NCBI GenBank assembly: GCA_947311485.1
Contig: CAMZLM010000212.1
Location: 1-33,855, forward strand
DNA: 33,855 bases
From: an uncultured Paracoccaceae bacterium
Lineage (GTDB): Bacteria > Pseudomonadota > Alphaproteobacteria > Rhodobacterales > Rhodobacteraceae
Reading direction: 5' to 3'
Numbering within the stretch: position 1 is the stretch's first letter; the number at the start of each line of letters is the position of its first letter. The notes below the pieces were generated by a model, which saw only the letters and a program-made list of their open reading frames with translations, had not been told where the DNA came from and made no database searches. The translations under genes were made by a program, and so were the position numbers. Positions 734-17,376 of this stretch are shown here, in pieces.

Positions 734-2449
734 TTATTTACAGGACAGTTTGGCAAAGGCTTCGTGCTGGGACAGGAATAATTCGCCGCTTAGGTTGTCA
801 AAGAAATTGGTCTGGTATAGGCGGTCGGTGACGGGGCCTTTGACCTCTGACATATGCAGTTTTATGTTTGCCGATTTCAGACGGGAATTAATTTCCTCGA
901 GTGCTTCAAGCGCGCTCATGTCGATGTCGTTGACGGCGGAACACATCAGGATCACGTTTTGCAATTCCGGACTGTCGGCGACGGCGTCCAGAATGTAATC
1001 CTCCAGATAGCGGCTGTTGGCGAAATACAGGCTTTCGTCGATGCGGATGGTCAGGATATGCGGGCAGGTTTCCACATCATGGCGGTGGATATTGCGAAAA
1101 TGCTCACATCCCGGTACCCGCCCGACAACGGCGATATGGGGTTTGGACGTGCGGTACAGGTGCAGCGCCAGCGACAGGACCACACCGGCAGAAACGCCTA
1201 TTTTTACGCCGAATACCAGCGTCATCAGAATGGTCACAGCCACGGCAGCAAAATCGGGGCGGGAGTATTCCCACGCCTTGCGCAGAGGCGAGAAATCCAG
1301 CAGCGACAGCACGGCAACGATGATGATTGAGGACAAGGTTGCCTTGGGTAAAAAATACAATAGCGGGGTCAGGAACAGGGCGGCAAACAGGATGCCCACC
1401 GCAGTAAAGGCACCGGCTGCGGGGGTGCGCGCACCGGAATCGAAATTCACTACAGAACGGGAAAACCCGCCGGTCACCGGATAGCCGCCGGAAATGGCCG
1501 AGGCAACATTGGCCGCGCCCAACCCGATCAGTTCCTGATTGGGGGAAATTTTTTGCCGACGGCGCGCGGCCAGCGTTTGCGCCACGGAGACGGATTCAAC
1601 GAACCCGATCATGGAAATCAGAAAGGCCGACATGCCCAGCTTGCCCCAGAGGTTGGCATCGAATTCCGGCACAGTCAGGGGCGGGATGCCTTGGGGCAGG
1701 GTGCCGACGATTTTAACGCCGCTATCGGATAGCCCGAACAGCCAGGTTAGCAGAGTTGTTACGACAACCACCACCAGCGGGCCGGTTTTGGACAGGATAG
1801 TGGTGGCCATCGGGCCAAGGTCGAACCGTTGCAAGAACGGTTTCAACCCTTTGCGCGACCAGATGAGAAAGCCGATGCAACTGGCGGAAATGAAAACTGT
1901 GGCCGGATTGACCTGACCGATATTTTGCAGCAGGGAACCAACAAGTGTGACCATATCGCGGCCATGCGCCTGAATGCCAAGCAGGTGTTTGATCTGGCTG
2001 GCCGCAATCAATAAAATCGCGGCGGTCATGAAACCGGAAATCACTGGATGGCTGAGGAAATTGGCCAGAAAGCCCAGCCGAAAAATGCCCATTACCAGCA
2101 GCATCAAACCGGACATAAACGCCAGCACAATCGCGGCGGCGGCGTATTCGCCGTTTTCCAGGCCCATAGAACCAAGCGCGCCGGCTGTCATTAGCGATAC
2201 AACCGCTACCGGCCCCACGGCCAGATAACGGCTGGAACTGAACAAGGCATAGGCCATCAGCGGGAGGATCGAGGCATACAGCCCCATTTCCGGTGGTAAA
2301 CCGGCAAGCAAAGCATAGGCGAGCGATTGCGGGATCAACATGATCGTCACGATTACAGCGGCAATCATATCGCCGGAGAAAACGTCTTTGTTATATGTTT
2401 TCCCCCATTGCATCGCGGGGATATAACGTTCCAATGCCTTGCGTATCAT
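734..2449 (-). CDS. SulP-family anion permease with C-terminal STAS domain
   Basis: Inner-membrane transporter of the SulP/SLC26 family, 571 residues, a normal length. The N-terminal part has the family pattern IPQSLAYALLAGLPPEMGLYAS (about residues 40-61) and the following many-pass hydrophobic core. The last ~130 residues form a STAS domain with DIDMSALEAL near its centre. SulP proteins move sulfate, bicarbonate or other anions. In this position, downstream of a persulfide dioxygenase and a sulfurtransferase, sulfite, sulfate or thiosulfate is the natural guess, but that is inference from context. The ATG has no clear Shine-Dalgarno, and a perfect stem-loop ends only 17 bases before it, so expression probably differs from that of the upstream genes. 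A later in-frame Met at residue 13 is a possible alternative start. Confidence 0.93.
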   Translation of the reverse strand: MIRKALERYIPAMQWGKTYNKDVFSGDMIAAVIVTIMLIPQSLAYALLAGLPPEMGLYASILPLMAYALFSSSRYLAVGPVAVVSLMTAGALGSMGLENGEYAAAAIVLAFMSGLMLLVMGIFRLGFLANFLSHPVISGFMTAAILLIAASQIKHLLGIQAHGRDMVTLVGSLLQNIGQVNPATVFISASCIGFLIWSRKGLKPFLQRFDLGPMATTILSKTGPLVVVVVTTLLTWLFGLSDSGVKIVGTLPQGIPPLTVPEFDANLWGKLGMSAFLISMIGFVESVSVAQTLAARRRQKISPNQELIGLGAANVASAISGGYPVTGGFSRSVVNFDSGARTPAAGAFTAVGILFAALFLTPLLYFLPKATLSSIIIVAVLSLLDFSPLRKAWEYSRPDFAAVAVTILMTLVFGVKIGVSAGVVLSLALHLYRTSKPHIAVVGRVPGCEHFRNIHRHDVETCPHILTIRIDESLYFANSRYLEDYILDAVADSPELQNVILMCSAVNDIDMSALEALEEINSRLKSANIKLHMSEVKGPVTDRLYQTNFFDNLSGELFLSQHEAFAKLSCK

Positions 2450-2466
2450 TTTTGTATTCCGAAAAT

Positions 2467-2488
2467 ACGGCGGGGATGTCCCCGCCGT
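2467..2488 (-). terminator. Intrinsic terminator-like hairpin between the DUF442 gene and sulP
   Basis: Perfect inverted repeat with 10-base arms (2467-2476 and 2479-2488) and two central bases. On the minus strand the stem is followed by A and then TTTT, as in a Rho-independent terminator. It begins 6 bases after the DUF442 stop and ends 17 bases before the sulP start. It should end most transcripts and leave sulP to read-through or a separate start. Confidence 0.75.
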
Positions 2489-2493
2489 TGGTG

Positions 2494-2895
2494 TTAGGCT
2501 CTTCCGGTGAACATAGACGTAAGATTACGCATTGTCCCTGCCAAACCGGCATTGGGGGTCGCGGATTTGGGCAGCGCGTGAGAGGCCATCATCGAAGACC
2601 GTGCGCCGGACAGACAAAAGGCAACGATTGTGCCGGGCATTTCTTCGACTGCGGCGGCAAATTCGTCGACCATATTCTGGGTCACGCCGCCAAAACCGAC
2701 AGGAATATAACGGGCTTCCATGCCCAGTTTTTCCGCAGCGGTTTTCAGTTCGTTGAATGTTGGCTGGCCGGCCCCTTCGAAATCGGGACGGTTACAGATG
2801 ATCGACTTGACGCCTTGGCTTTGCAGGGCAGGCAGATCCTGCACATTCACTTGACCAGAGATCGACAATTTGTCGTTAAGAGGCTTGATTCGCAT
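2494..2895 (-). CDS. DUF442 / TIGR01244-family sulfurtransferase (rhodanese-like phosphatase fold)
   Basis: 133 residues, matching the stand-alone DUF442 family, which also occurs as the N-terminal domain of Blh-type fusion proteins. The fold is of the tyrosine-phosphatase/rhodanese type and the active-site loop is C94-L-S-G-A-R99, the CxxGxR arrangement of rhodaneses. The expected role is transfer of sulfane sulfur (persulfide) between small thiols or proteins in the cytoplasm. The gene begins 13 bases after the persulfide-dioxygenase stop, so the two are almost certainly co-transcribed and work on the same persulfide pool. In many bacteria the two activities are fused, and here they are separate adjacent genes. 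Substrate is inferred from family and neighbours. Confidence 0.88.
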   Translation of the reverse strand: MRIKPLNDKLSISGQVNVQDLPALQSQGVKSIICNRPDFEGAGQPTFNELKTAAEKLGMEARYIPVGFGGVTQNMVDEFAAAVEEMPGTIVAFCLSGARSSMMASHALPKSATPNAGLAGTMRNLTSMFTGRA

Positions 2896-2908
2896 GGTAT
2901 TTTCTTTC

Positions 2909-3790
2909 TTAGAGACCGTTTACCGGCACCTTTAACATTGGGTTTCCTTCGGCGTCAGTGGGCAAATTGCCGCCGCGCATATTGACTTGTAAGGACGGGA
3001 TAATCAGCTTGGGAACGGCCAGTTGCGCATCGCGTTCAGTGCGGAATTTGATGAAATCCTCGCGGGTTTTTCCCTGTCCTACATGGATGTTGTTGGCCTT
3101 TTCTTCGGCGACGGTGGTTTCCCATTTGATGTCACGGCCACCGGTGCCGTAATCGTGGCACATGAACAGGCGCATGTTGTCGGGCAAGGCCAGAATTTTC
3201 TGGATCGAGTCATACAGATCACCGGCATCGCCACCGGGAAAATCGGCGCGGGCAGAGCCGCTGTCCGGCATGAACATCGTGTCGCCGGTAAAGGCCGCAT
3301 CGCCCATCACATGCACCATGCAGGCGGGGGTGTGGCCCGGGGTATGCATGGCAAAACAGTCCATTTCACCGACTTTATAGGTATCGCCATCCTTGAACAG
3401 CGCATCGAACTGGCTGCCGTCGCGTTGGAACTCGGTGCCTTCGTTAAAGATTTTGCCAAAGACTTCCTGCACGGTGACGATCTGTTCACCAATGCCGATT
3501 TTACCGCCCAGCGTTTCCTGAATATAGGGGGCGGCCGACAGGTGATCGGCGTGGACGTGGGTTTCGATCAACCATTCCAGCTGCAAATTATTGTCCTGCA
3601 CAAAGGCGATCATTTTATCCGCATGTTCATAGGTGATGCGGCCGGAAAAATAATCAAAGTCCAGAACGGAATCGACAATCGCACAGGCATTGGAAGCGGG
3701 GTCTTTGACAACGTAACTGATGGTGTTTGTTGCGTCGTCGAAAAAGGCTGTGACCTCGGGTTTTATATCCATGTTCACGGGATAGGTCAT
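2909..3790 (-). CDS. Persulfide dioxygenase-like metallo-beta-lactamase-fold protein (ETHE1/Blh type)
   Basis: 293-residue metallo-beta-lactamase-fold hydrolase. The metal site is HVHADH (residues 78-83), followed by HTPGHTPACMVHV and TGDTMFMPDSGSARADFPGGDAGDLYDSI. This last pattern is characteristic of the ETHE1/Blh persulfide-dioxygenase group rather than of glyoxalase II. These mononuclear-iron enzymes oxidise glutathione persulfide with O2 to sulfite and glutathione. An AGGAGG Shine-Dalgarno lies 8 bases before the ATG. The gene is preceded by a strong hairpin and followed closely by the DUF442 sulfurtransferase, the usual pairing for sulfide/persulfide detoxification. Enzyme class is well supported and the exact thiol substrate is inferred. 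Confidence 0.9.
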   Translation of the reverse strand: MTYPVNMDIKPEVTAFFDDATNTISYVVKDPASNACAIVDSVLDFDYFSGRITYEHADKMIAFVQDNNLQLEWLIETHVHADHLSAAPYIQETLGGKIGIGEQIVTVQEVFGKIFNEGTEFQRDGSQFDALFKDGDTYKVGEMDCFAMHTPGHTPACMVHVMGDAAFTGDTMFMPDSGSARADFPGGDAGDLYDSIQKILALPDNMRLFMCHDYGTGGRDIKWETTVAEEKANNIHVGQGKTREDFIKFRTERDAQLAVPKLIIPSLQVNMRGGNLPTDAEGNPMLKVPVNGL

Positions 3791-3838
3791 GTGTCTTTCC
3801 TCCTTGTTGCGGGGTGTCGAGGGTATTTAGGTCATAAA

Positions 3839-3866
3839 CAAGCGAGGCCAAGGGAGGCCTCGCTTG
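3839..3866 (-). terminator. Hairpin between the DUF2892 gene and the persulfide dioxygenase gene
   Basis: Perfect 11-base stem (3839-3849 with 3856-3866) and a 6-base loop. On the minus strand the stem is followed by TTTATG, so it could act as a partial intrinsic terminator or an mRNA-processing boundary. It lies 21 bases past the DUF2892 stop and about 49 bases before the dioxygenase start, inside what otherwise reads as one operon. Confidence 0.65.
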
Positions 3867-3887
3867 AATGGGAAAAACAGGGGGGTG

Positions 3888-4106
3888 TTATTTGTTCAGG
3901 GGACAGGTGCGAATGCCCAGAATAGAATACAGCGGGCAGATTTTGGTCATGCTGACGACCAGCATTACCAGCCCAACAACCACAGCACCCCATTTAAACA
4001 AGCCGCTGTCAAACAGCGCCATGCCGGATACAAAAGGCAATGCGATCAGGACCAGCCCGATGATTGCACGAAAAATGCGGTCAATCCCGCCTACGTTCGG
4101 TGACAT
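3888..4106 (-). CDS. DUF2892 (YgaP-type transmembrane) small membrane protein
   Basis: 72-residue protein with two predicted membrane helices: residues about 13-31 (IFRAIIGLVLIALPF) and about 39-56 (KWGAVVVGLVMLVVSMT). It ends in CPLYSILGIRTCPLNK with two cysteines near the membrane face. This is the DUF2892 pattern (GGIDRIFR...CPLY...G..TCP), also found as the membrane part of the rhodanese YgaP. The start is set by a GGAGGA Shine-Dalgarno 7 bases before ATG 4104-4106. The longer upstream reading frame lacks such a site and would run through the promoter palindrome. It heads the persulfide genes downstream of the Crp/Fnr regulator. The role is unknown; a part in sulfur transfer or export at the inner membrane is inferred from this repeated association. 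Confidence 0.85.
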   Translation of the reverse strand: MSPNVGGIDRIFRAIIGLVLIALPFVSGMALFDSGLFKWGAVVVGLVMLVVSMTKICPLYSILGIRTCPLNK

Positions 4107-4161
4107 ATCAGTTCCTCCGTTGATGTCTGCAAGTTTGATACACGGCGGATTGATTCGCTTC

Positions 4162-4176
4162 GGTGACATTGTCACC
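4162..4176 (-). promoter_or_regulatory. Candidate Crp/Fnr-type operator upstream of the DUF2892 gene
   Basis: GGTGACATTGTCACC is a perfect palindrome with 7-base arms around one central base, in the 88-base gap between the Crp/Fnr stop and the DUF2892 start. On the minus strand a possible -10 (TATCAA, 4140-4135) would put its centre about 41 bases upstream of transcription start, the usual activator position for this family. The spacing between half-sites is one base shorter than the canonical CRP/FNR boxes. Two TTGAT half-sites (4135-4139, 4150-4154) also lie in the gap. Confidence 0.55.
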
Positions 4177-4194
4177 AACGGATTGAAAAACTGT

Positions 4195-4857
4195 TCAAGC
4201 CTCTGTTTCGGCAAGTTTTTTAATTGCATATTTGTCCAGAAGGGTGATGGTCCCCCGTGTCAGGGTCACCCAGTCGCGGCGCTGGAACTCTTGCAATTGG
4301 CGTGAAACCACTTCGCGCGCGGAGCCGAGTTCGGCTGCCAGCTTCTGATGTGTGGCTTTGACCACATCGGTTTCGCGGCTCAGGGTCAACAGCCGCTGCG
4401 CCAGCCGGATATCCATGCGCTGAAAGGCGATTTCCTCGATCACGAAAAACAGGTCGGTGATGCGCTTGGAATAGGCCGAGAAGACAAACCGGCGAAAGGT
4501 TTCGGATCTGGAGACCAGCTCGTCAAACACCCCGCGCGGGATTGCCGCAGCCTCTACCTCGGTTTCGGCGATACCTTCGGCGGAGTATTCCTCATAAGCT
4601 AGCAGGCAAGCGGTGGTCATGACACAGCTTTCGCCCGCATTCACCCGATAGAGAACGATTTCGCGCCCACTTTCCGAAAGCTGTTGCACCCGCACGGTGC
4701 CGGCCAGCATCAACAGCAGGTTTTCCGGTATCTTACCCGGACCAAAAACCACAGTGCCGGCGGGCACCTTTAGCACCTGACTTTGCCCGACCAATATGTC
4801 GCGCACATCGGCAGGCAGGCTCGAGAGGCCCTCAAATCGGTCAATCCATGTGGTCAT
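4195..4857 (-). CDS. Crp/Fnr-family transcriptional regulator, probable sulfide/persulfide-responsive
   Basis: 220 residues: an N-terminal cyclic-nucleotide-binding-like beta barrel (about 15-115), a dimerisation helix (about 120-150) and a C-terminal winged helix (about 155-215). The recognition helix carries E182-x-x-S185-R186, the FNR-type E-xx-SR set. The four FNR iron-sulfur cysteines are absent. The only two cysteines are C78 and C84 (CVMTTAC), at the position where cAMP-binding CRPs have their phosphate cassette. A redox or persulfide-reactive cysteine pair is therefore a reasonable inference. It lies directly upstream of the DUF2892/dioxygenase/sulfurtransferase genes and probably controls them from the palindrome at 4162-4176. 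A 13-base-stem hairpin precedes its start, with AAGGAT as Shine-Dalgarno. Confidence 0.88.
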   Translation of the reverse strand: MTTWIDRFEGLSSLPADVRDILVGQSQVLKVPAGTVVFGPGKIPENLLLMLAGTVRVQQLSESGREIVLYRVNAGESCVMTTACLLAYEEYSAEGIAETEVEAAAIPRGVFDELVSRSETFRRFVFSAYSKRITDLFFVIEEIAFQRMDIRLAQRLLTLSRETDVVKATHQKLAAELGSAREVVSRQLQEFQRRDWVTLTRGTITLLDKYAIKKLAETEA

Positions 4858-4902: not shown

Positions 4903-6372
4903 CTAGTTCAACAGCACCCGTGGCAGCCACAGCGCGATTTCCGGGAAGATGATGATCATCAACAGCCCGAACAGTTGCAACAGCACAAACGGCACGATGC
5001 CCGCGTAAATCTGCTGGATCTTGATCGAGGGCGGGGCTACGGCTTTCATATAGAACAGGGCAAAGCCAAAGGGCGGGGTGAGAAAGGATGTCTGCAAATT
5101 CACCGCCAGCAGGATCGCGAACCAATAGACCATGTCGACCTTGGCCACATGGTCGCCAAAATCCAGCTGTTCGATAATCGGTGCAAAAACCGGCAGCACG
5201 ATCAGGGTGATTTCGATCCAGTCGAAAAAGAACCCCAGCACAAACACGATGCCCATCAACAGGAACAACAGCCCCCATGAACCGAAGCCCAGCTTGTTGA
5301 CCAGTTCGATAATAATGTCGTCGCCGCCGAGCGAGCGGAACACAAAGGAAAACATCGTCGCCCCCATGAACAGCCCGAAAATCATCGCGTTGGTCATGGC
5401 GGTACGTTCCATCACATCGCCAACCACACCCCAGAAATCCTTGAGCCGCTGACCAAAACCGATGCGTGCCATCTCTGTCGGGCCATCTTCGCCGGCAACG
5501 AACATCTGCATTTCCTGCACGCCGATTGCCGGCAGGATCACCAGATTGAACAGTCCCAGCAAAATCGCCCCGAGCGCGCCAACGCCGGCGGCCTCGGTTG
5601 GGGTGGCAAACCCCATCAGGATAGACCCCAGCACCGCCATGATCAGCAGCACCGGCGGGATGAACGAACGCAGCACCATCACCAGAATGGGGCCAAGCGT
5701 TTGTGGCCCGATATTTTTATCCAGCTTCGGTGCCAGCGCCGGATTGAGCGTACAGCGCACCACGATGTAAACCACATACAGGCTGGCCAGCATCAGACCG
5801 GGGAATACGGCGGCGACAAACAGATTGCCCACGGACCGGCCCAGCAGATCGGCCATAATCACCAGCATGATTGAGGGAGGGATCAGAATACCCAGCGTAC
5901 CGGATGCGGCAATCGTACCGGTGGACAGGCGCGGATCATAGCCGCGTTCGATCATCACCGGCAGCGCCAGCAGCGACATCATCACAACCGAGGCACCAAT
6001 AATCCCCGTGGTGGCAGCCAGAATAGTGCCCATCAGGGTCACCGCCAACGCCAGCCCGCCGGGCACACGGCGTAGCAATACTTGTAAACAGTTCAGCAAA
6101 TCCCGTGCAATGCCGGACCGTTCCAGCATCGTGCCCATCAATATGAACATCGGTATTGCCGTCAGCAGCAGATTTTCCGACACTGCCCCGTAAATCCGCG
6201 ACGGAATCGCGCCGAACTGTGGCCAATCAAACAAAAACGGATCAATCCAAATCGCCAGCAGCGCATAGCCAAGCCCGACACCGCCCAGCACAAATGCCAC
6301 CGGAAAGCCGGTGAACAACAACACCGCCAGCGTGGCAAACATGGCCAGCGGCAAGAGTTCCTCAAAGCCCAT
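4903..6372 (-). CDS. TRAP transporter large permease subunit (DctM type)
   Basis: 489-residue multi-pass inner-membrane protein of the DctM/IT superfamily, the main transport subunit that imports an organic acid with sodium or proton co-transport. The body is almost wholly hydrophobic with family patterns TGIIGASVVMMSLLALPVM and SGTLGILIPPSIMLV. A charged insert of about 60 residues in the middle (around EDGPTEMARIGFGQRLKDFW) is typical of the larger COG4664 branch linked with mannitol/chloroaromatic-acid-type TRAP systems. ATG 6370-6372 is one base after the DctQ stop, so translation is coupled; longer starts upstream would lie inside dctQ. The substrate is not given by the sequence. The adjoining ThDP enzymes suggest a carboxylic or 2-oxo acid. 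Confidence 0.92.
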   Translation of the reverse strand: MGFEELLPLAMFATLAVLLFTGFPVAFVLGGVGLGYALLAIWIDPFLFDWPQFGAIPSRIYGAVSENLLLTAIPMFILMGTMLERSGIARDLLNCLQVLLRRVPGGLALAVTLMGTILAATTGIIGASVVMMSLLALPVMIERGYDPRLSTGTIAASGTLGILIPPSIMLVIMADLLGRSVGNLFVAAVFPGLMLASLYVVYIVVRCTLNPALAPKLDKNIGPQTLGPILVMVLRSFIPPVLLIMAVLGSILMGFATPTEAAGVGALGAILLGLFNLVILPAIGVQEMQMFVAGEDGPTEMARIGFGQRLKDFWGVVGDVMERTAMTNAMIFGLFMGATMFSFVFRSLGGDDIIIELVNKLGFGSWGLLFLLMGIVFVLGFFFDWIEITLIVLPVFAPIIEQLDFGDHVAKVDMVYWFAILLAVNLQTSFLTPPFGFALFYMKAVAPPSIKIQQIYAGIVPFVLLQLFGLLMIIIFPEIALWLPRVLLN

Positions 6373-6373
6373 G

Positions 6374-6937
6374 TTATATCTCCCCGCCCAGAATTTCATC
6401 GGCCTGTTCTGGCGGCAGTTTGCCTGCCAGACCGGCAATAACTTTGATGAGCTGGGAAATTCCGGCCATCCCCATCAGGATAAACATGATCGGGATCGTG
6501 ATTTTCAATGCCCAGCTATAGGGCAGACCGATAATGGATTTGGATACCTCGCCTTCCAGAAAAGACGTGTGTGTATAAGCAGAGGAATAATAAATCACCA
6601 CCACCAGATAAGGCAGCAGAAACAGCATGATTCCCAGAAATTCGATAAAATACTTCCCGCGTGGCGAAAAGGAATCGCGCAATAGATCAATCCGTACATG
6701 GGCACCTTTGATATAGGCGTAGCCCAGCACCAGCGTAAAGAAATAGGAATGCAGCCAGTATTCGGATTCCTGCACCATAGTGGAATTCAAACCAAAGGGT
6801 TTAGGCACCCCCAGATAGCGGCTGGAAACATCGTAACAGACGACCACAACCAGCAACAGACCGGACCATTTGGCGATACCGGCAACAAAGGCCAGCACGC
6901 GATCCAGACCGGCGCTTATGGATAAAAGACTTTGCAT
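6374..6937 (-). CDS. TRAP transporter small permease subunit (DctQ type)
   Basis: 187-residue membrane protein with four predicted helices and the family pattern around residues 30-45, VVCYDVSSRYLG, followed by Q..E..LH. It forms the membrane complex with DctM. ATG 6935-6937 was chosen because it has a G-rich Shine-Dalgarno a few bases upstream and starts the conserved part; an earlier start would add about 11 unsupported residues. It lies 55 bases downstream of the binding-protein gene and runs directly into dctM. Some of its spacing to dctP is a short untranslated stretch without any strong hairpin. Confidence 0.9.
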   Translation of the reverse strand: MQSLLSISAGLDRVLAFVAGIAKWSGLLLVVVVCYDVSSRYLGVPKPFGLNSTMVQESEYWLHSYFFTLVLGYAYIKGAHVRIDLLRDSFSPRGKYFIEFLGIMLFLLPYLVVVIYYSSAYTHTSFLEGEVSKSIIGLPYSWALKITIPIMFILMGMAGISQLIKVIAGLAGKLPPEQADEILGGEI

Positions 6938-6992
6938 ATGCCCCCCCTTCAGGTGCAAACGGCTCGGCACAGCTGCCGGGCCGTCCGATTTT

Positions 6993-8036
6993 TTACTTCA
7001 AGAAACCGTAGTTTTTCCACAGTTTGTATTCTTCACGATAGTCCTGCATGGATTTCCAGATACGGGCGAAATCCTCGTTCTTGGCGGCTTGCTCTGCGGC
7101 AACCTCGTTCCATTTTTCCTCGAACACGGCCAGATCCTCGTCAGACCATTTATGCAGGGTTACCCCGTGGCCGACCAATTCCTTGAGTGCCTTGGCCTGC
7201 AGGGCTTCGCCTTCGGCCAGACCGGTTGCCACATTGGCGCGACAGGCGGTGGTGATGATTTTTTGCTGTTGGGCGTCCATGGCATTCCATTTGTCCATGT
7301 TGATCATCATTTCCAGCAGGGTGGATTGCTGATGCCAGCCGGGGAAGTAGTAATGTTTGGCGATCTGGTAGAACCCCAGTTTCAGATCAATCGCCGGCAT
7401 GGAAAATTCGGTCGCATCAATGGTGCCCCGCTCCAGCGCCGGATAAATATCGGCGGCAGCCAGCAACTGTGTATCGACTCCCAGCTTCTGCATCACCTTG
7501 GCTCCCAGACCAAAGAAACGCATTTTCAGCCCTTTCAGGTCGGCCACGGAATCAATCGGCTTGCGGAACCAGCCGGATGCCTCGGGTGCGATGATACCGC
7601 AGACCATGGTGTGGATATTGTGGCGGGCGTACAGTTCCTGCATCATTTCCTCGCCACCGCCGTAATACATCCAGCCAAGGTATTCACCGGCGGACGGGCC
7701 AAAGGGCACGGTGGTAAACAGGGTCACAGCGGGTTCCTTGCCCTGCCAGTATCCCGGCGCGGACCACCCCGCATCCACGGCACCGGATTTCACCGCGTCA
7801 AACAGTTCAAGCGCTGGCACCAAGGCACCCGGCTCGTAGAATTTCACCTTGATACGGTCGCCGGCCATGGCGTTGATGTTGGCTTCCAGCTCTTTGCCAA
7901 GCGTGCCCAGCTGCACCAGACCGCCGGGGAACGTGGACCCCATTTTCAGACGTGCGTTTTCAGCGGCATTCGCCCCTGTAACGCTTGTCATGGCCATAAC
8001 GGCCCCCGCCACGGCGGAATAAATCAGTTTTTTCAT
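6993..8036 (-). CDS. TRAP transporter substrate-binding protein (DctP family)
   Basis: 347-residue periplasmic binding protein. The first ~25 residues are a Sec signal peptide (KK, a hydrophobic core, then ANA before AEN). The mature protein shows the DctP pattern GLKMRFFGLGAKVMQKLG near the middle and GTIDATEFSMP after it, which places it with the FcbT1/COG4663 type that binds carboxylates through a conserved Arg (R in KMRFFG). A GGGAG Shine-Dalgarno precedes the ATG. It follows the ThDP-enzyme gene by 92 bases containing a 6-base-stem hairpin, which may allow a different expression level for this usually abundant protein. Ligand unknown. Confidence 0.92.
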   Translation of the reverse strand: MKKLIYSAVAGAVMAMTSVTGANAAENARLKMGSTFPGGLVQLGTLGKELEANINAMAGDRIKVKFYEPGALVPALELFDAVKSGAVDAGWSAPGYWQGKEPAVTLFTTVPFGPSAGEYLGWMYYGGGEEMMQELYARHNIHTMVCGIIAPEASGWFRKPIDSVADLKGLKMRFFGLGAKVMQKLGVDTQLLAAADIYPALERGTIDATEFSMPAIDLKLGFYQIAKHYYFPGWHQQSTLLEMMINMDKWNAMDAQQQKIITTACRANVATGLAEGEALQAKALKELVGHGVTLHKWSDEDLAVFEEKWNEVAAEQAAKNEDFARIWKSMQDYREEYKLWKNYGFLK

Positions 8037-8128: not shown

Positions 8129-9856
8129 TCAGGCCACCCGATCCCCTTTTTTGATTTTCACAGTACGGTTATCCACCGCCGGCAACATGCGCGATGGATC
8201 GCGTGTGACCATCACGTCAATCACGCTGGGCCGGTCGGTTTCGTCCATGGCCGCCGCCAGCGCCGCCGCCAGATCACCGGGCTGTTCCACCCGAATCCCG
8301 TGGCAGCCCATGGCCTTGGCCACCTCTGCGTAATTGGTTTCCGACAGGTCGGAAGATTGATAATTGCCTTCGCCATACATCAGATGCTGCAACGCCTTGA
8401 CGTAACCGGAGGCCGCGTTGTTCACCACGATCACCGTCACCCCCAGCCCCATGCGTCGCGCGGTTTCCAGTTCGCCCAGCACCATGTTGAACCCGCCGTC
8501 CCCTGTCAGGCCGATCACAGTGGCATCCGGCGCGGCCAGTTGCGCGCCCATTGCCCCGGGTAACCCGTACCCGATGCTGGCAAAGCCCCGATCCGGTACG
8601 AAATTGCGCATGGCCTTTTGGGTGTCAAACAGCAAGCCGCCCCAATGGGCCGCAAAACCGCCGTCGGCGATTAGATAGCCGTCTTCGGGCAGGGCCTTGT
8701 TGATTTCGGTAATCAGCCGCGCCATATGTACCGGCGTTTCATCGGAATCGAGCCGCCCGGAAACATCCTGTCGCCATGCTGCCATTTTGGCCGGAATTTC
8801 AGCCAGATAATCCGTACGCGCCGCCTTTTGCGCGGCCCCGTCACCCATTTCCAGCGCAATATCGGACAGCCCCGCCTTGGCATCGCCCCAGAGTTTCAGC
8901 GTCGGCGTATAGGTCCGCCCCATTTCCTCGGCCACGGAATCCAGATGGATCACCGCCGCCCCTGCTGCCGGTATCGAATAACGTTTGGTGGCGATTTCTC
9001 CGAGCTTGCACCCCACTACCAGCAAACAATCGCTGGCGGCAATCAGGTCATTGGCAATCCGGTCATAGCGCCCGAACAGCCCTGCGCTTAGCGGGCTGTT
9101 GCAAGCGATTGCCCCCTTGCCGGTCAGGGTATGGGCCACCGGAATACCGAAGGTTTCGGCCAGCGCCGTGACCTCTTCCTGCGCGCTGGACAGATGGATT
9201 CCGCCCCCCACCAGCAGCATTGGCCGCTTGGCCTTGGTCAGCATATCGGCGGCCTTGGTCACATCGTCCATATCGGGCCGGCAACGCAGCGCCGGAATGG
9301 CGGTGTGGGCCGGGTTGGCGGTGAATTCGACCATGTCAAAATCATGGGTGCCGTGGGCCACGTCCTCGGGGACTGACACCACCACAGGACCGGGGCGCCC
9401 CGATGTCGCCACACAAAAGGCCCGCGCGATGATTTCAGGGATCCGCGCCACGGTTTCCACCCGCAACAGTTCCTTGCAGGCCGGACGCAGGATCGACACC
9501 TGATCGGTTTCCTGCGTCATGTTCTTGCCCGCATGTTCGCGGTTGGCGTCGCCAATGATGGCCACAATTGGCGACCCCGCGTTTAGGGCCTCCACCAGTC
9601 CGGTCACCAAATTGGTCGCCCCCGGCCCAAGCGTGGCATCCACCAGCCCGACGCGGTTGGATACTTTGGAATAGGCATCGGCGGCAAAAACCGCGCAGCG
9701 TTCGTCGTTGATCAGGTTATGTTGCAGCCCCAGCCGCCGTGCCGCATCGTAAAACGGCAACAATTGAAACCCGCCCATGCCGAACATCGGGCCGGCTCCG
9801 TGGGCCTGCAACATACGGGCTATGGCTTCGCCGCCGGTGATTTCATTCTTGCTCAT
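8129..9856 (-). CDS. Acetolactate-synthase-like thiamine-diphosphate enzyme
   Basis: 575 residues with the three-domain layout of the AHAS/POX family: N-terminal pyrimidine-binding domain, central domain (about 190-330), and C-terminal pyrophosphate domain. The catalytic Glu that activates ThDP is E52 (NDERCA), and the metal/ThDP motif is GDG 452-454 with NN 479-480. These enzymes decarboxylate or ligate 2-oxoacids. The sequence does not match the hallmark N-terminus of sulfoacetaldehyde acetyltransferase, and no AHAS small subunit is nearby, so a catabolic role is likelier than branched-chain amino-acid synthesis. Its ATG overlaps the E1-beta stop by 4 bases, linking it to an E1 pair that uses the same cofactor. 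Substrate unknown. Confidence 0.85.
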   Translation of the reverse strand: MSKNEITGGEAIARMLQAHGAGPMFGMGGFQLLPFYDAARRLGLQHNLINDERCAVFAADAYSKVSNRVGLVDATLGPGATNLVTGLVEALNAGSPIVAIIGDANREHAGKNMTQETDQVSILRPACKELLRVETVARIPEIIARAFCVATSGRPGPVVVSVPEDVAHGTHDFDMVEFTANPAHTAIPALRCRPDMDDVTKAADMLTKAKRPMLLVGGGIHLSSAQEEVTALAETFGIPVAHTLTGKGAIACNSPLSAGLFGRYDRIANDLIAASDCLLVVGCKLGEIATKRYSIPAAGAAVIHLDSVAEEMGRTYTPTLKLWGDAKAGLSDIALEMGDGAAQKAARTDYLAEIPAKMAAWRQDVSGRLDSDETPVHMARLITEINKALPEDGYLIADGGFAAHWGGLLFDTQKAMRNFVPDRGFASIGYGLPGAMGAQLAAPDATVIGLTGDGGFNMVLGELETARRMGLGVTVIVVNNAASGYVKALQHLMYGEGNYQSSDLSETNYAEVAKAMGCHGIRVEQPGDLAAALAAAMDETDRPSVIDVMVTRDPSRMLPAVDNRTVKIKKGDRVA

Positions 9857-10833
9857 GGTGCGGATTTCCCCAGTGTTTCAAGTGCTGCTTTTTCGATCAT
9901 GTCTTCGGTGATGCGCACCTGATCTTCAAGATTCGGTGCATAGGCTACCAGCGAGCGCGGTGCGCCCAGCCGGCGCAAAGGCCCGCGCAAGGCGTCCCCG
10001 GCCTGTTCGGCGACTGTGGCCACGACCTCGGCTCCGAAACCGCCCACGGCCACGGATTCATGTGCCACCACCAGCCGCCCGGTCTTGCGCACGCTGGCCA
10101 GCACGGTTCCCTTGTCCCACGGCCAGAGGCTGCGCAGGTCGATCACCTCGGCGTGGATGTTTTGCGTGGCCAGCCTGTCGGCCACAGCCACACATTTGTT
10201 GGCGGTGTCGGACCAGCTGACAAGGGTCACATCATCGCCGCTGCGCCGCACGGCGGCCTTGCCAAGGGTTACCTCGAGGCTTTTGTCTACCTCGCCTTCC
10301 ATCTGCCAGATGTTTTTGTGTTCCAGATAAACTACAGGGTCATCGCATTTGATTGCGGCTTTCATCATCGAATAATTGTCCTGCGGTGTGGCAGGACAGA
10401 CCACCACCAACCCGGGAATATGTACATACCAGCTTTCCAGCGACTGGCTGTGTTGCGCGGCAGAAGAGCGCCACAACCCGATCGGTTTGCGGATCACCAT
10501 CGGTGCGCGGGACTGGCCGCCGAACATGAAACGCGCCTTGGCGATCTGGTTGACCAGCTCGTCCGTGGCGCACAGGGCAAAATCGGAAAACCGCATTTCC
10601 ACAATCGGTCGCGTGCCGACCATCGCCGCCCCAAAGGCCGCCCCCATGATCGCTGCCTCTGAAATCGGGGTGTCCGCCACACGGTCAGGGCCGAATTCCT
10701 CTTGCAAGCCGAGGTATTGCCCGAACACCGACCCGCGCCCGAGATCCTCTCCCACACACCAGACAGTTTTGTCCGCATGCATCATTTCGCGCACGGCCTC
10801 GCGGCTGGCCTCTACATAGGTCATTTTTACCAT
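9853..10833 (-). CDS. 2-oxoacid/acetoin dehydrogenase E1 component, beta subunit
   Basis: 326 residues, the usual size of AcoB/PdhB-type beta subunits. Family features are DTPISEAAIMGAAFGAAM (about residues 53-70), then PIVEMRFSDF, and AAQHSQSLESWYVHIPGLVVVCPATPQD in the middle. It should pair with the alpha subunit immediately upstream to make an alpha2beta2 ThDP enzyme that decarboxylates a 2-oxoacid or cleaves an acetoin-like ketone and passes the acyl group to a lipoyl carrier. No E2 or E3 gene is present in the window. Its start overlaps the alpha stop by one base and its stop overlaps the next ThDP gene, so all three are translationally coupled. Confidence 0.9.
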   Translation of the reverse strand: MVKMTYVEASREAVREMMHADKTVWCVGEDLGRGSVFGQYLGLQEEFGPDRVADTPISEAAIMGAAFGAAMVGTRPIVEMRFSDFALCATDELVNQIAKARFMFGGQSRAPMVIRKPIGLWRSSAAQHSQSLESWYVHIPGLVVVCPATPQDNYSMMKAAIKCDDPVVYLEHKNIWQMEGEVDKSLEVTLGKAAVRRSGDDVTLVSWSDTANKCVAVADRLATQNIHAEVIDLRSLWPWDKGTVLASVRKTGRLVVAHESVAVGGFGAEVVATVAEQAGDALRGPLRRLGAPRSLVAYAPNLEDQVRITEDMIEKAALETLGKSAP

Positions 10834-11840
10834 CAGAATGCCTCCACTGCCGGGCTGCCCGTGTCCTGAACATCCAGAAACGCGGTGTTGTCATCGGGGA
10901 AAGGTGTCGCTGCGGCTTTGGCCAGCACGGCGATCATTTCGGTTTGGGCGGTTTGGTGGATGGTGTCGAGCGCATCCTCGCTCACGCCCATTCCGGCCAG
11001 CAATGTACGTTGGCGGGCAATCGGATCGTTCAGCTTTTCCTCGCGTGCGGATTCGTCTTCGGGTCGATAGGTCGCCGGATCAAACGAGGTATGCCCCGTG
11101 CGCCGGTAGGTGATCAGATGCAACATTTCCGGTGGACCACCCGCCCGCAGGCGGGCGGCGATTTCGTCGGCAGCATTGGCGACGGCCTCGACGTTGTTGC
11201 CGTCAATTACTGTTGCCTTCAGGCCCAGCGATTTTGCCCGCGCTGCCGCCCCCTGACCGGCGGTAACGCTTTTGGTCTTGGTGGTGGCGGAATACTGGTT
11301 GTCCTCGCAGACAAACATCACCGGCAGTTCAAATACGCTGGCCCAGTTGATACCCTCCAGAAACGGGCCGCGATTGATCGCGCCATCGCCGAACACATCC
11401 ACCACAATCCGGTTGTCACCCATCAGCTTGATCCCGTGTGCGGCACCGGCTCCGATGGTGATGTTGGCACCAACCACCCCGTTGGCCCCCAGCATTCCCA
11501 CCCCGAAATCGGCAATATGCATGGACCCGCCCTTGCCCCCGCAACAGCCGCCCTCGCGGCCCAGCAATTCGCGCATCATGGCCAAAGCGTCGGCCCCCTT
11601 GGCCAGCGTGTGGCCGTGTCCCCGATGGGTCGACAGCAAAATATCATCCGTGTTCAACGCCTGCATCACGCCGGCGGCGCAGGCCTCTTGGCCGATGGAG
11701 GGATGGATCGCCCCCAGCACCAGTTTGTCCCGTTCAGCGGCCAGAATCGCCTGTTCCTCAAAGGCGCGAATGCGTTCCATCATCGCCAGAAGTTCCCGCG
11801 CCCGTGCGGTGTTATGGGTTGCCGTGTTCACTTGTTTCAC
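10833..11840 (-). CDS. 2-oxoacid/acetoin dehydrogenase E1 component, alpha subunit
   Basis: 335 residues. The ThDP/Mg motif is GDGA (151-154) with N181 closing it (EDNQYS). GGCCGGKGGSMHIAD (about 97-111) and the G-A-N-G-V-V-G-A loop are very close in pattern to acetoin dehydrogenase AcoA, and it lacks the N-terminal extension of branched-chain oxoacid E1-alpha. It uses a GTG start that overlaps the iclR stop by 4 bases (GTGA), with GGAG 7 bases upstream. Acetoin, pyruvate or another small oxo compound are all possible substrates. The family assignment is firm and the substrate is not. Confidence 0.9.
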   Translation of the reverse strand: MKQVNTATHNTARARELLAMMERIRAFEEQAILAAERDKLVLGAIHPSIGQEACAAGVMQALNTDDILLSTHRGHGHTLAKGADALAMMRELLGREGGCCGGKGGSMHIADFGVGMLGANGVVGANITIGAGAAHGIKLMGDNRIVVDVFGDGAINRGPFLEGINWASVFELPVMFVCEDNQYSATTKTKSVTAGQGAAARAKSLGLKATVIDGNNVEAVANAADEIAARLRAGGPPEMLHLITYRRTGHTSFDPATYRPEDESAREEKLNDPIARQRTLLAGMGVSEDALDTIHQTAQTEMIAVLAKAAATPFPDDNTAFLDVQDTGSPAVEAF

Positions 11841-12610
11841 CCTTGCTCCATTTCATCAATTCGTTGTGCCAGCAGCGTTGCTTCCTGCCACATGGCCGGT
11901 ATCAGAACCGTATTGATCCGTTCCGGCGTCATACGGGCATCAATTGCGCCAATGGCAATCGCGGCCACCAGCCGGCCCTTGCCGGTGATCACCGGCACGG
12001 AAATCGCGCTGGTGCCGGCCACGATCCGCCCGAAATTTGCGGCATAGGCGGTTTTCTGAAAGACGGCATAATCGGCGGCCAGTTCGGCCTCGCTCACCCC
12101 GTAATCCGCCATCCAGTTCTTGTTGATCCGCTGGATGGTTTCGCGTTCCTTACGGCTCATCGAACAATAGAGCGCGAGCGCCCCCGCCCCGACACCCAGC
12201 GGGCGTGTGTCGCCTACATTCAGCGTCAATGTCCGAATGGGAAAGGCCCCTGTGGCGCGTGAAATACAGATGGCGGCGGCCCCTTCGGGGATCGACAGAA
12301 AAACGGTGTCCTCGGTCAGGGCAGCCAGCCGCTGCATGCCGCGTTTGGAAATGGCGGCAATATCGGTGCGGCAGGCGGTCTGCGATATCCGCGCCAGTTT
12401 TTGCCCCAGCCGGTATTGGCGGCTCTCCAGATCCTGAAAGACGTACCCTACATCTTGTAAATTCGCCAACACGCGAAACACCGTGGTTTTGGAAAAGTCG
12501 GATTCGGCAACGATCTGGGCGAGCGACAGCCCGTCAGGTGCTTTGGTCAGCACATCAATAATACGCGCAGCACGCGGGATGGATCCGGTTATCGCGGCGA
12601 TCTCGGTCAT
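11837..12610 (-). CDS. IclR-family transcriptional regulator
   Basis: 257 residues: an N-terminal winged helix (about 8-70, with GLSLAQIVAESDFSKTTVFRVLANLQDVGYV) and a C-terminal GAF-like effector domain (about 80-250, with LTLNVGDTRPLGVGAGALALY and ISVPVITGKGRLVAAIAIG). IclR proteins bind small carboxylates and repress or activate adjacent catabolic genes. It heads the ThDP/TRAP operon and is divergent from the duplicated protein and ABC importer, so it most likely controls both from the 94-base gap. A TTCCG-N5-CGGAA palindrome lies there at 12628-12642. The effector is probably the imported compound or an intermediate. Confidence 0.92.
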   Translation of the reverse strand: MTEIAAITGSIPRAARIIDVLTKAPDGLSLAQIVAESDFSKTTVFRVLANLQDVGYVFQDLESRQYRLGQKLARISQTACRTDIAAISKRGMQRLAALTEDTVFLSIPEGAAAICISRATGAFPIRTLTLNVGDTRPLGVGAGALALYCSMSRKERETIQRINKNWMADYGVSEAELAADYAVFQKTAYAANFGRIVAGTSAISVPVITGKGRLVAAIAIGAIDARMTPERINTVLIPAMWQEATLLAQRIDEMEQG

Positions 12611-12627
12611 GTCACCCTGTCTATATG

Positions 12628-12642
12628 TTCCGTTTATCGGAA
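12628..12642. promoter_or_regulatory. Candidate IclR operator in the divergent promoter
   Basis: TTCCGTTTATCGGAA is an inverted repeat with 5-base arms and a 5-base centre, 18 bases upstream of the iclR start. The arm sequence and 15-base span fit known IclR-family operators. It lies in the only non-coding gap shared by the two divergent operons. Confidence 0.65.
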
Positions 12643-12704: not shown

Positions 12705-13499
12705 ATGGATTCTCTATTGCTCGACTCAATCACGGATGCGGATGCCCTTGCCAAAGGGCGGGTGGTGGTTTGTGGATCGCACGGCGGTATGTATCCGGCG
12801 GCGGTGGCCTCGGGGGCCGGTGTGCGCGCGGTGGTTTTCAATGATGCGGGCGAGGGGCTGGAACGCGCCGGTGTAGCCGGTGTGCTGGCGCTGGAAGGCA
12901 TCGGCATGGCAGCGGCAGCGGTGGATTGCAACAGTTGCCATATCGGGTCAGCCAGCGATACACTGGCGCGGGGTATCATCAGCGTTGCCAATGATGTTGC
13001 GGCGGGATTGGGCGTTATGCCCGGCACGCCGGTGGCGCAGGCGGTGGCCCTGTTGCAAGGTGCCGCCGCGCCGGCAGGGCAGTTGCCGCCGGTAAGCGAA
13101 TCCCGTCAGGAATTAAAATTCGGTAACGGTACTGTGCTGCATTTGCTCGATTCGGCGTCGCTGGTCGGGCCGCAAGATATCGGTAAAATCGTGATCACCG
13201 GCTCGCATGGCGGGCTGATCGGGGGGAATCTAAAGCGCGCGATCAAGGCCAATGCCCGTATTGCAGTGTTCAATGATGCCGGCTTCGGGGCGGATGATAT
13301 CGGAGTTACCCGTCTGCCGGCCCTGAATGCGCGCGGGGTTGTTGCCGTGACGGTTGCCTGCCAAACTGCCCGCATCGGCGAGGCGCTCTCGGCGCTTGAA
13401 ACCGGCGTGATTTCGGCCCAGAATGATCTGGCGCAGGCGCTTGGTGCGCAAACGGGGCGCGGCCTGTCGGATTGGCTGCTGGCTATAGAACAAGACTGA
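12705..13499 (+). CDS. Unrecognised protein built from two copies of one ~105-residue domain
   Basis: 264 residues, no signal peptide or membrane segment, probably cytoplasmic. I do not recognise the family. Residues ~3-107 and ~147-252 align end to end. Both copies have LLDS at the start, then GSHGG (24-28 and 166-170), VFNDAG (45-50 and 188-193), an aligned cysteine (C75 and C219), IG (80-81 and 224-225), and a closing helix with ISxxND. The linker (108-146) is rich in Ala, Pro and Gln. Conserved His, Asn, Asp and Cys in both halves suggest an enzyme with pseudo-twofold symmetry. It is the first gene of the plus-strand operon, 21 bases before the ABC binding protein and divergent from iclR. 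No good Shine-Dalgarno precedes the ATG. The function is unknown; the context suggests action on the imported substrate. Confidence 0.8.
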   Translation: MDSLLLDSITDADALAKGRVVVCGSHGGMYPAAVASGAGVRAVVFNDAGEGLERAGVAGVLALEGIGMAAAAVDCNSCHIGSASDTLARGIISVANDVAAGLGVMPGTPVAQAVALLQGAAAPAGQLPPVSESRQELKFGNGTVLHLLDSASLVGPQDIGKIVITGSHGGLIGGNLKRAIKANARIAVFNDAGFGADDIGVTRLPALNARGVVAVTVACQTARIGEALSALETGVISAQNDLAQALGAQTGRGLSDWLLAIEQD

Positions 13500-16245: not shown

Positions 16246-17376
16246 ATGACCCATATCGTCATTCTCGGCAGCGGCTTTGGCGCGCTGACCGCCGTTCGCC
16301 AAATTCGCAAACGCAATCTGGATGCCAAAATCACGCTTGTTTCCCCGAACAAGTTTCTGGCCTATCTGCCCAGCCTGATCTGGATGCCTTCGGGCATGCG
16401 CAAGGCATCCGACATCAACGTTGATCTGGACAATTTTTTCGCCAAACACAACGTCAGCTGGCATCAGGGGTCGGTCACCAATGTGACAGACGGCGGGCGT
16501 AGGGTGGAAACCGATACCGGCACGCTGACCAATGACTATCTGGTGATCGCCACCGGGTCGCGGTTTATCAAGAAATTGCCGGGCATCACCGAACACGCGA
16601 TCATTCCGTGTGAAGGCACCACCGCCGGCCAGATGATCCATGACCGAATTGCAGAAATGGACGGCGGTACCATTGCCATCGGTTTTGGCACCAACCCCAA
16701 GGAACCCAAAGCCGTGCGTGGCGGGCCGATGTTTGAATTCCTGTTCGGGATCGAAACCATGCTGCGCCGGCAGGGACGGCGGGACAAATTCAATCTGGTG
16801 TTTTTCAACGGCTCCCCCAACCCGGGTATCCGGTTGGGCGAAAAGGCAGTTGCCGGTTTGCTGAAACAGATGGCCAAACGCGGGATTGCAACACATCTAG
16901 GCGCAAAGCCGATCCGGATCGAGGCCGACAAAGTCGTCACTGAACGCGAAGAGATCCCCGCCGATCTGGTGCTGATGATGCCCGGTTTGACTGGTCCGCT
17001 GTGGCTCGACAACACCGACCTGCCCCGATCCGAAGGCGGCTTTATCCAGTCGGATGCCAAATGCCGCGTGCAGGGGCTGAAAGGCACCTATGTCATCGGC
17101 GATACCGGCTCCTATCCCGGTCCGGAATGGTTGGCAAAACAGGCGCATCAGGCGGATTTGCAGGCCGAGGCCGCCGTGGCCAACATTGCCGATGAAATGG
17201 CGGGCAATGCGCCAAGCCATGATTTCAAGGCCGAACTGATCTGCATTGTGGATACGCAGGACACGGGTATTCTTGTGTTCCGCAACGAAAAGCGCTCTAT
17301 TTTTCTGCCGCCGCTGAAGATCTTTCACTTTGCCAAGCGTATCTTTGAAGGCCTGTATCTGCGGCCCTACCGCTAA
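16246..17376 (+). CDS. Sulfide:quinone oxidoreductase-like FAD-dependent oxidoreductase
   Basis: 376 residues of the FCC/SQR/NDH-2 flavoprotein group. The Rossmann FAD motif is at the N-terminus (VILGSGFGALTAVR), the second FAD contact is ATGSRF (about 102-107), and TYVIGDTGSYPGPEWLAKQAHQA (281-303) is the C-terminal FAD motif. The hydrophobic tail (KIFHFAKRIFEGLYLR) suits monotopic membrane attachment. SQR enzymes pass electrons from sulfide to quinone through a cysteine pair. Here C122 (PCEG) and C333 (ICIVDT) match two of the three usual cysteines. The middle one, expected just before the GPxFEF segment at about residue 160, is replaced (AVRGGPMFEF). It may be a variant SQR or a different quinone reductase. 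It stands apart from the persulfide genes on the left. Confidence 0.75.
   Translation: MTHIVILGSGFGALTAVRQIRKRNLDAKITLVSPNKFLAYLPSLIWMPSGMRKASDINVDLDNFFAKHNVSWHQGSVTNVTDGGRRVETDTGTLTNDYLVIATGSRFIKKLPGITEHAIIPCEGTTAGQMIHDRIAEMDGGTIAIGFGTNPKEPKAVRGGPMFEFLFGIETMLRRQGRRDKFNLVFFNGSPNPGIRLGEKAVAGLLKQMAKRGIATHLGAKPIRIEADKVVTEREEIPADLVLMMPGLTGPLWLDNTDLPRSEGGFIQSDAKCRVQGLKGTYVIGDTGSYPGPEWLAKQAHQADLQAEAAVANIADEMAGNAPSHDFKAELICIVDTQDTGILVFRNEKRSIFLPPLKIFHFAKRIFEGLYLRPYR

Follow-up and report, generated by a model that had tools for sequence, protein, structure and literature searches.

The protein that we call T, encoded in a 33,855-nucleotide contig of an uncultured Paracoccaceae bacterium (the window, by which we mean the whole stretch of DNA analysed), consists of two tandem copies of one domain, and its homologues are found together with two ThDP enzymes far more often than expected. 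That T takes part in a pathway with these enzymes is very probable given this co-occurrence, and it is probably a missing step of an undescribed pathway for the breakdown of small keto acids. The best explanation as a whole, to which we would give an even chance, is that T is an enzyme in one 2-oxo-acid pathway with the two ThDP enzymes. The preliminary description of this sequence is confirmed in what it observed and partly supported in how it read it: the link with the ThDP genes is stronger than it could know, while the link with an adjacent ABC importer and a shared cysteine fall away. A surface-level literature search found nothing on T.

The gene for T is an intact ORF of 264 codons with an ATG start, and the features around it are listed in Table 1. 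On the minus strand the order is IclR, E1-alpha, E1-beta, acetolactate-synthase-like (ALS-like), and then the P, Q and M genes of a TRAP transporter, running from 12610 to 4903. A regulator divergent from T and three ThDP genes had been described, and the gene layout is as stated, although the three ThDP polypeptides make up two enzymes, an E1 of alpha and beta subunits and a single ALS-like chain, and the same-strand run extends into the TRAP transporter, which was absent from that account. The genome encodes a second E1-alpha elsewhere (36% identical) and several other ALS relatives (27-32% identical), and the ThDP enzymes that accompany T are thus extra copies. Beyond the TRAP genes (734-4857) there are, by eye, a SulP-type permease, a persulfide-dioxygenase-like protein of metallo-beta-lactamase fold and a Crp/Fnr-type regulator, a group with a sulphur-related look. 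On the other side, downstream of the ABC importer (16246-17376), lies a gene for a FAD protein similar to type III sulfide:quinone reductase (86 bits; cut-off 525).

Table 1. Features of the window in the region of T
Feature	Position	Strand	Remarks
T	12705..13499	+	a ~130-aa alpha/beta domain present twice in tandem; AlphaFold2 model (ten sequences) pLDDT 89.4, pTM 0.82
T repeat 1 (residues ~4-122)	12714..13070	+	DSIT, GSHGG, VFNDAG, ISxxN
T repeat 2 (residues ~146-263)	13140..13493	+	DSAS, GSHGG, VFNDAG, TARIG, ISxxN; AlphaFold2 single-repeat model (21 rows) pLDDT 92.1, pTM 0.87
Palindrome TTCCGTTTATCGGAA, probable IclR operator	12628..12642	.	between T and IclR gene
IclR-family regulator, PcaR/BhcR-like	11837..12610	-	under curated NCBIfam cut-offs
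E1-alpha-like ThDP subunit	10833..11840	-	family scan
E1-beta-like ThDP subunit	9853..10833	-	family scan
ALS-like ThDP enzyme, own subfamily	8129..9856	-	found in 35 further genomes (of 385 searched) at 57-80% identity
TRAP solute-binding protein	6993..8036	-	closest solved relative TakP
TRAP small permease, DctQ-like	6374..6970	-	named by position and look; clusters with same-place gene in L064-L066
TRAP large permease, DctM-like	4903..6372	-	clusters with gene annotated TRAP large permease in L056

The tandem duplication in T was proposed from the single sequence and is borne out by closer comparison. Residues 1-128 and 129-264 are identical at 42 of 105 aligned positions (40%; E 7e-18 in a single BLASTP comparison), and profiles of the two halves, built from 61 full-length sequences, align over 118 columns with an hhalign probability of 100 and an E value of 8e-47. 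These 61 sequences include the window's own, and 60 of them are distinct, the proteins of L009 and L095 being the same. The motifs said to be shared are found in register in both halves (GSHGG at 24-28 and 166-170, VFNDAG at 44-49 and 188-193, ISxxND at 92-97 and 236-241), and the polar residues are retained on both sides in most of the family: among the 61 sequences, S25 is kept in 61, H26 in 58, D47 in 55, N46 in 46, R79 in 49 (the window's own protein has His there) and N96 in 60, with S167 in 60, H168 in 60, D191 in 61, N190 in 50, R223 in 54 and N240 in 60 at the second repeat. Four positions (E132, R134, D158 and R203) are asymmetric, being retained on one side only in the homologue set A1. 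In the predicted structure, GSHGG, NDAG and ARIG come directly after strands, and the invariant polar clusters of both halves look like ligand sites.

Not every shared residue is a family feature. C75 and C219 do fall at the same alignment column, as had been pointed out, but Cys occurs there in only 16 and 20 of the 61 sequences, and the Asp of ISxxND is poorly kept (Asp at position 97 in 8 of 61). Neither Cys nor Lys is conserved anywhere in the 264 positions (at most 25 and 29 of 61 respectively), and a conserved catalytic cysteine is therefore rejected. Half-length homologues of 120-137 aa, with one repeat and the motifs of T, occur in L105, L106 and L109-L112, and eight single-repeat stretches match both half-profiles at E 4e-43 or better; L113, scored among the nine half-length loci, is a diverged two-domain protein. 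The simplest history is that of a homodimer whose gene was then duplicated and fused.

The claim that T fits no known family also stands, in that the window protein reaches the cut-off of no Pfam or NCBIfam model and has no significant sequence relative in the PDB, the best profile match (E 0.051) being a local one to a Y-family polymerase. Foldseek searches of the PDB gave no match at E<=0.001 for the whole model (0 of 477) or the single repeat (0 of 424), and none of 131 matches to viral structures was significant. A deaminase-like fold was rejected, the matches being short and non-significant (dCMP deaminase, E 0.36 over 42 columns; five viral deaminases, E 2.3-5.1). While profile and fold searches thus returned no clear family, a weak link to DUF1805 (PF08827) did emerge. 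The window protein scores 16.6 bits against this model, below the gathering cut-off of 29.5, and so falls outside the family by that measure; 36 of the 42 members of set A1 match it at E<=1 (best 8e-9), and among 28 distinct homologues with scores the cut-off is narrowly passed by L022 (30.3) and L014 (30.2), with L032 at 29.4. In hhalign comparisons the first-half profile matches two DUF1805 proteins at E 5.5e-6 (probability 86, 37 residues aligned), the second-half profile does so at E 1.4e-4 (probability 52) and the profile of the single-domain set at E 5.4e-4 (probability 30), against E 0.09-1 for 17 control families, the alignments covering only the C-terminal 27-37 residues. The third Foldseek match of the single repeat, and the one of highest probability among the 50 listed, is 1qw2 (54 columns, 2.1 A, probability 0.75, E 0.41, TM 0.41 by target length). 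This protein (TA1206) belongs to DUF1805, since L115, which is positive for the Pfam model, matches it at E 2e-11.

A remote relationship of T to DUF1805 is thus plausible. The IMS model, of the plainly unrelated Y-family polymerases, nevertheless matches 34 of the 42 members of A1, and its cut-off of 23.2 is passed by four T proteins (L033/L084, 29.3; L018, 26.9; L023, 26.2; L032, 23.3), so that the stretch shared with DUF1805 may be a common local motif. We rejected the IMS and UPF0227 matches, which are local and taken as chance. The IMS match apparently runs through a short GxISxxNxxAxxLG stretch and is likely to appear as a false positive in annotation pipelines.

Homologues of T were found at ten loci in a collection of genome contigs, in 49 of 385 genomes of the window's class, the Alphaproteobacteria, in four of 33 of its genus, in ten of 398 genomes of a phylum sample (four of them weak), and on ten plasmids, five of which are haloarchaeal; among viral contigs there were 347 pattern matches, none confirmed. 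Two of the 49 (G069 and G133) are doubtful, as a profile recheck found no T in them, and both are nonetheless included in the count. The neighbourhoods examined comprise 51 regions from the genome searches and eight of the ten plasmid matches; they do not include G186 and G314 (genera already represented), G090, G304, the weak matches of the phylum sample, or G069 and G133, which are likewise weak. Genes were called by codon usage, a procedure that did not call the T gene itself in L007, L010, L074, L078, L081, L085, L093, L105, L109 and L112, and neighbouring families were matched using all open frames.

The strongest evidence for the role of T comes from the company that it keeps, and the link with ThDP genes proposed from the window alone is real and strong. 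With orthologues defined at E<=1e-130 for the ALS-like enzyme and E<=1e-70 for E1-alpha (limits of our own choice), the 385 genomes include 49 with T, 36 with the ALS-like gene and 36 with E1-alpha. T occurs with the first in 34 genomes and with the second in 36, where 4.6 would be expected for each pair (hypergeometric probabilities of 1.5e-34 and 4e-40, which ignore relatedness, genomes of the same family not being independent). All three genes are present in 34 genomes of 18 families; in 27 of these the ALS-like gene, and in 26 E1-alpha, is no more than 12 kb from T, while the ALS-like gene is further away or on another contig in seven, E1-alpha in eight and both in three (G104, G219 and G404), each of which still encodes both.

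The same picture is seen from the loci themselves. Among the 61 full-length T loci (60 distinct), the ALS-like gene is nearby in 33, E1-alpha in 32, either in 37 and both in 28; for the 43 loci (42 distinct) with at least 5 kb on both sides, the corresponding figures are 24, 23, 26 and 21. Nine loci hold one of the ThDP enzymes only, and the other is encoded elsewhere in all eight for which the genome was searched. ThDP genes are nearby in none of the nine half-length loci. On a tree of 60 T proteins, whose bootstrap had not settled, the presence of ThDP genes is clustered (nine changes against 18.5 when shuffled). The arrangements vary: T is directly followed by the ALS-like gene in L008, L070, L072, L075, L082, L084, L086, L087 and L096, overlapping its start by 4 bases in L070, L082 and L096 (with script-called starts), and elsewhere T is divergent from E1-alpha or the order resembles that of the window. 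T and the ThDP genes are also together in L067, L075, L086 and L087, where about 19 kb contain no match to IclR or to the TRAP large permease; L005 and L077 are not counted here, as their contigs stop less than 0.8 kb from the ALS-like gene. L098 and L103 each have two E1-alpha/E1-beta pairs in the cluster with T and the ALS-like gene, and within one family L075 (with kin in L084, L086 and L087) has two small conserved genes beside the ThDP genes (5910-6515 and 6498-6968), the L075 copies having no Pfam hit. There are exceptions to the association: G077 and G111 have the ALS-like gene without T, even by profile recheck, both ThDP orthologues are missing from eight genomes that encode full-length T, and G319 and G397 combine E1-alpha with a half-length T.

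Such near-perfect co-occurrence, maintained even where the genes are unlinked, could also be explained if T were not catalytic at all and bound or helped both ThDP enzymes, as an assembly factor or as a stand-in for a missing E2. No E2-like gene was found in 32 T loci by a rough scan with a lipoyl motif, run without a positive control, which is consistent with such a role. We nonetheless regard it as quite improbable, given the eight genomes with T and neither enzyme, the presence of T beside a RuBisCO-like protein elsewhere, and the resemblance of its polar clusters to sites for ligands. As T has no conserved Cys or Lys it is no lipoyl or thiol carrier, and its use as an E2 or acyl-carrier substitute is weakened accordingly.

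An NMT1/SsuA-like ABC importer follows T on the same strand, with a gap of only about 20 bases to the binding-protein gene, and the preliminary description had tied T to it. That T belongs functionally to this importer is, in our opinion, highly improbable: at E<=1e-5, BLASTP against the 69 other T loci gave no match to its binding protein or permease and matches in nine loci to its ATPase, a member of a very common family, and in close kin the gene next to T is by eye valS-like (L001 and L005) or kpsF-like (L002 and L003). Another NMT1-family binding protein does occur about 6 kb from T in L009. Thus of the two neighbours whose recurrence was in question, the ThDP genes recur near T and the importer does not; as a general rule the link is rejected, it may hold as local co-transcription only, and the importer looks incidental to T.

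The TRAP transporter is more informative as to what may be taken up. The nearest matches to its binding protein are TakP (223 bits) and a chain that bears the name ketoacid-binding protein. TakP takes pyruvate and other 2-oxo acids as ligands, the cation and the keto acid being contacted by the side chains of Tyr100, Gln156, Arg177, Glu214 and Glu240 and by a main-chain oxygen of Trp215 (PMC1839085). At the positions named there, the window protein has Tyr, Glu, Arg, Glu, Gln and Phe respectively, so that three of the five side chains are identical; Gln156 and Glu240 are reciprocally exchanged, with charge kept, and Phe replaces the Trp that gives a main-chain oxygen in TakP. These TakP-like binding residues suggest that a 2-oxo or 2-hydroxy acid is the likely import, and we infer the substrate class of the pathway on this basis. 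The same binding-protein cluster is present in L064-L066, whereas seven other TRAP-bearing T loci have a different one (c12) that is not of the TakP type. As to regulation, exact TTCCG-N5-CGGAA palindromes occur in five of the ten loci in which T is divergent from an IclR gene (the window, L002, L068, L069 and L073) and one-mismatch versions in four (L004, L064, L065 and L066), with L089 lacking it; none of 12 loci with T divergent from E1-alpha and no IclR gene between has the exact palindrome. The copy in the window is a probable IclR operator.

T is also found in quite different surroundings. In five loci, four on haloarchaeal plasmids and the fifth L104, it accompanies a RuBisCO-like protein and a four-carbon acid sugar kinase; in the haloarchaeal L056 these are OiaX-like (504 bits) and OiaK-like (445 bits), against a cut-off of 700. 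A PGDH_C-type dehydrogenase (cluster c21) is present in four of the five, having been scanned in L056 and L104. NF042435, a dehydroshikimate dehydratase model, was of no help as a lead. Ring-cleavage-type genes adjoin T in L064 and, by gene order, in L065 and L066, and acyl-CoA, GMC-oxidoreductase or SDR genes do so in other loci. In L094 and L099, which have no ThDP genes nearby, T is preceded by a GMC oxidoreductase and a tandem pair of small genes belonging to one cluster, the L094 copy scanned being rhodanese-like. With contexts so varied, and eight genomes without the ThDP enzymes, no single substrate can apply to all of the family, which probably has several, the ThDP-linked group being the largest seen.

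That T turns up in a number of clusters for degradation, alongside SDR, VOC, FAH, dienelactone-hydrolase or CMD genes, raises the question of whether it is a hydrolase, cleaving lactones or 1,3-dicarbonyls and feeding varied catabolic pathways of which the ThDP one is an example, with its invariant Ser, His and Asp as catalytic residues. Ser-His and Asp are indeed among its most invariant polar residues, but the Ser and His are adjacent, unlike those of a normal triad, and among solved folds there is no significant match, two metal-dependent hydrolases appearing only at E 0.69 and 1.6. The lactonase version is weakened in the RuBisCO-like context by the gluconolactonase-like (SGL) gene that already adjoins T in L104, and the tight tie to two ThDP enzymes acting on C-C bonds would be left unexplained. 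We consider a hydrolase possible, if doubtful.

Returning to T as an enzyme of a 2-oxo-acid pathway, we offer as a tentative guess that it is a cofactor-free isomerase interconverting 2-oxo-3-hydroxy and 2-hydroxy-3-oxo acids. T would be soluble and would descend from an alpha/beta domain of ~130 aa that was duplicated and fused. In the window, a 2-oxo (or 2-hydroxy) acid would be imported through the TakP-type TRAP transporter, the pathway being switched by the divergent IclR regulator, and the Ser-His, Asn-Asp and Arg that follow strands in the model may carry out the interconversion, the Ser-His, Asp, Asn and Arg being suited to acid-base chemistry and carboxylate binding. The substrates of E1 enzymes are 2-oxo acids, and 2-hydroxy-3-oxo acids are formed or cleaved by acetolactate synthase and glyoxylate carboligase; the proposed step would join the one class to the other. 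It would also suit the haloarchaeal setting, in which T adjoins a 3-oxo-acid kinase and a RuBisCO-like decarboxylase, OiaK and OiaX acting on 3-oxo acids. Hydroxypyruvate isomerase catalyses an analogous cofactor-free reaction on another fold. T has no match to any isomerase, either in structure or at the level of residues; the hydroxypyruvate isomerase-like PF01261 does not match the window protein at E<=10 and is absent from the ten families listed at E<=1 for the 42 members of A1. In its fullest form, the proposal is that T represents a new family of cofactor-free ketol-acid isomerases on a duplicated DUF1805-like domain which, with a dedicated E1-alpha/beta without E2 and a dedicated ALS-like enzyme, makes up an undescribed route by which imported 2-oxo acids are broken down, present in 34 of the 385 class genomes sampled (about 9%); in its entirety this is rather unlikely.

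A conserved protein that scores below every family cut-off applied here has thus been tied genome-wide to two named enzyme types, which makes for a testable pathway. If the proposal is right, it would explain the purpose of the dedicated E1-alpha/beta and ALS-like copies in these bacteria, which could readily be mistaken for pyruvate dehydrogenase and acetolactate synthase, and could supply a first function for a DUF1805-like domain.

Several known systems are useful for comparison. DUF1805 proteins have a single domain of ~100 aa, whereas T has two ~130-aa repeats with GSHGG and NDAG, and the single-domain kin of T (120-137 aa) keep its motifs, unlike DUF1805. The partner enzymes have close sequence relatives in E1-alpha/beta of 2-oxo-acid dehydrogenases and in acetolactate synthase, but unlike these named families they do not reach the curated cut-offs of the NCBIfam models listed, and the ALS-like partner forms its own subfamily. 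Proteins similar to the D-apionate pathway enzymes OiaK and OiaX (NF042436 and NF042437) are encoded directly after or beside T in the four haloarchaeal plasmids and L104, although in L056, where they were scanned, they score under the curated cut-offs, and T is not itself among the enzymes named in that pathway. The hydroxypyruvate and 2-oxo-tetronate isomerases Hyi and OtnI are AP-endonuclease-like TIM barrels with no sequence match to T, whose fold is a duplicated alpha/beta domain; they nonetheless resemble it both in the proposed reaction and in the kinds of partner with which they act, a ThDP carboligase and an acid-sugar kinase.
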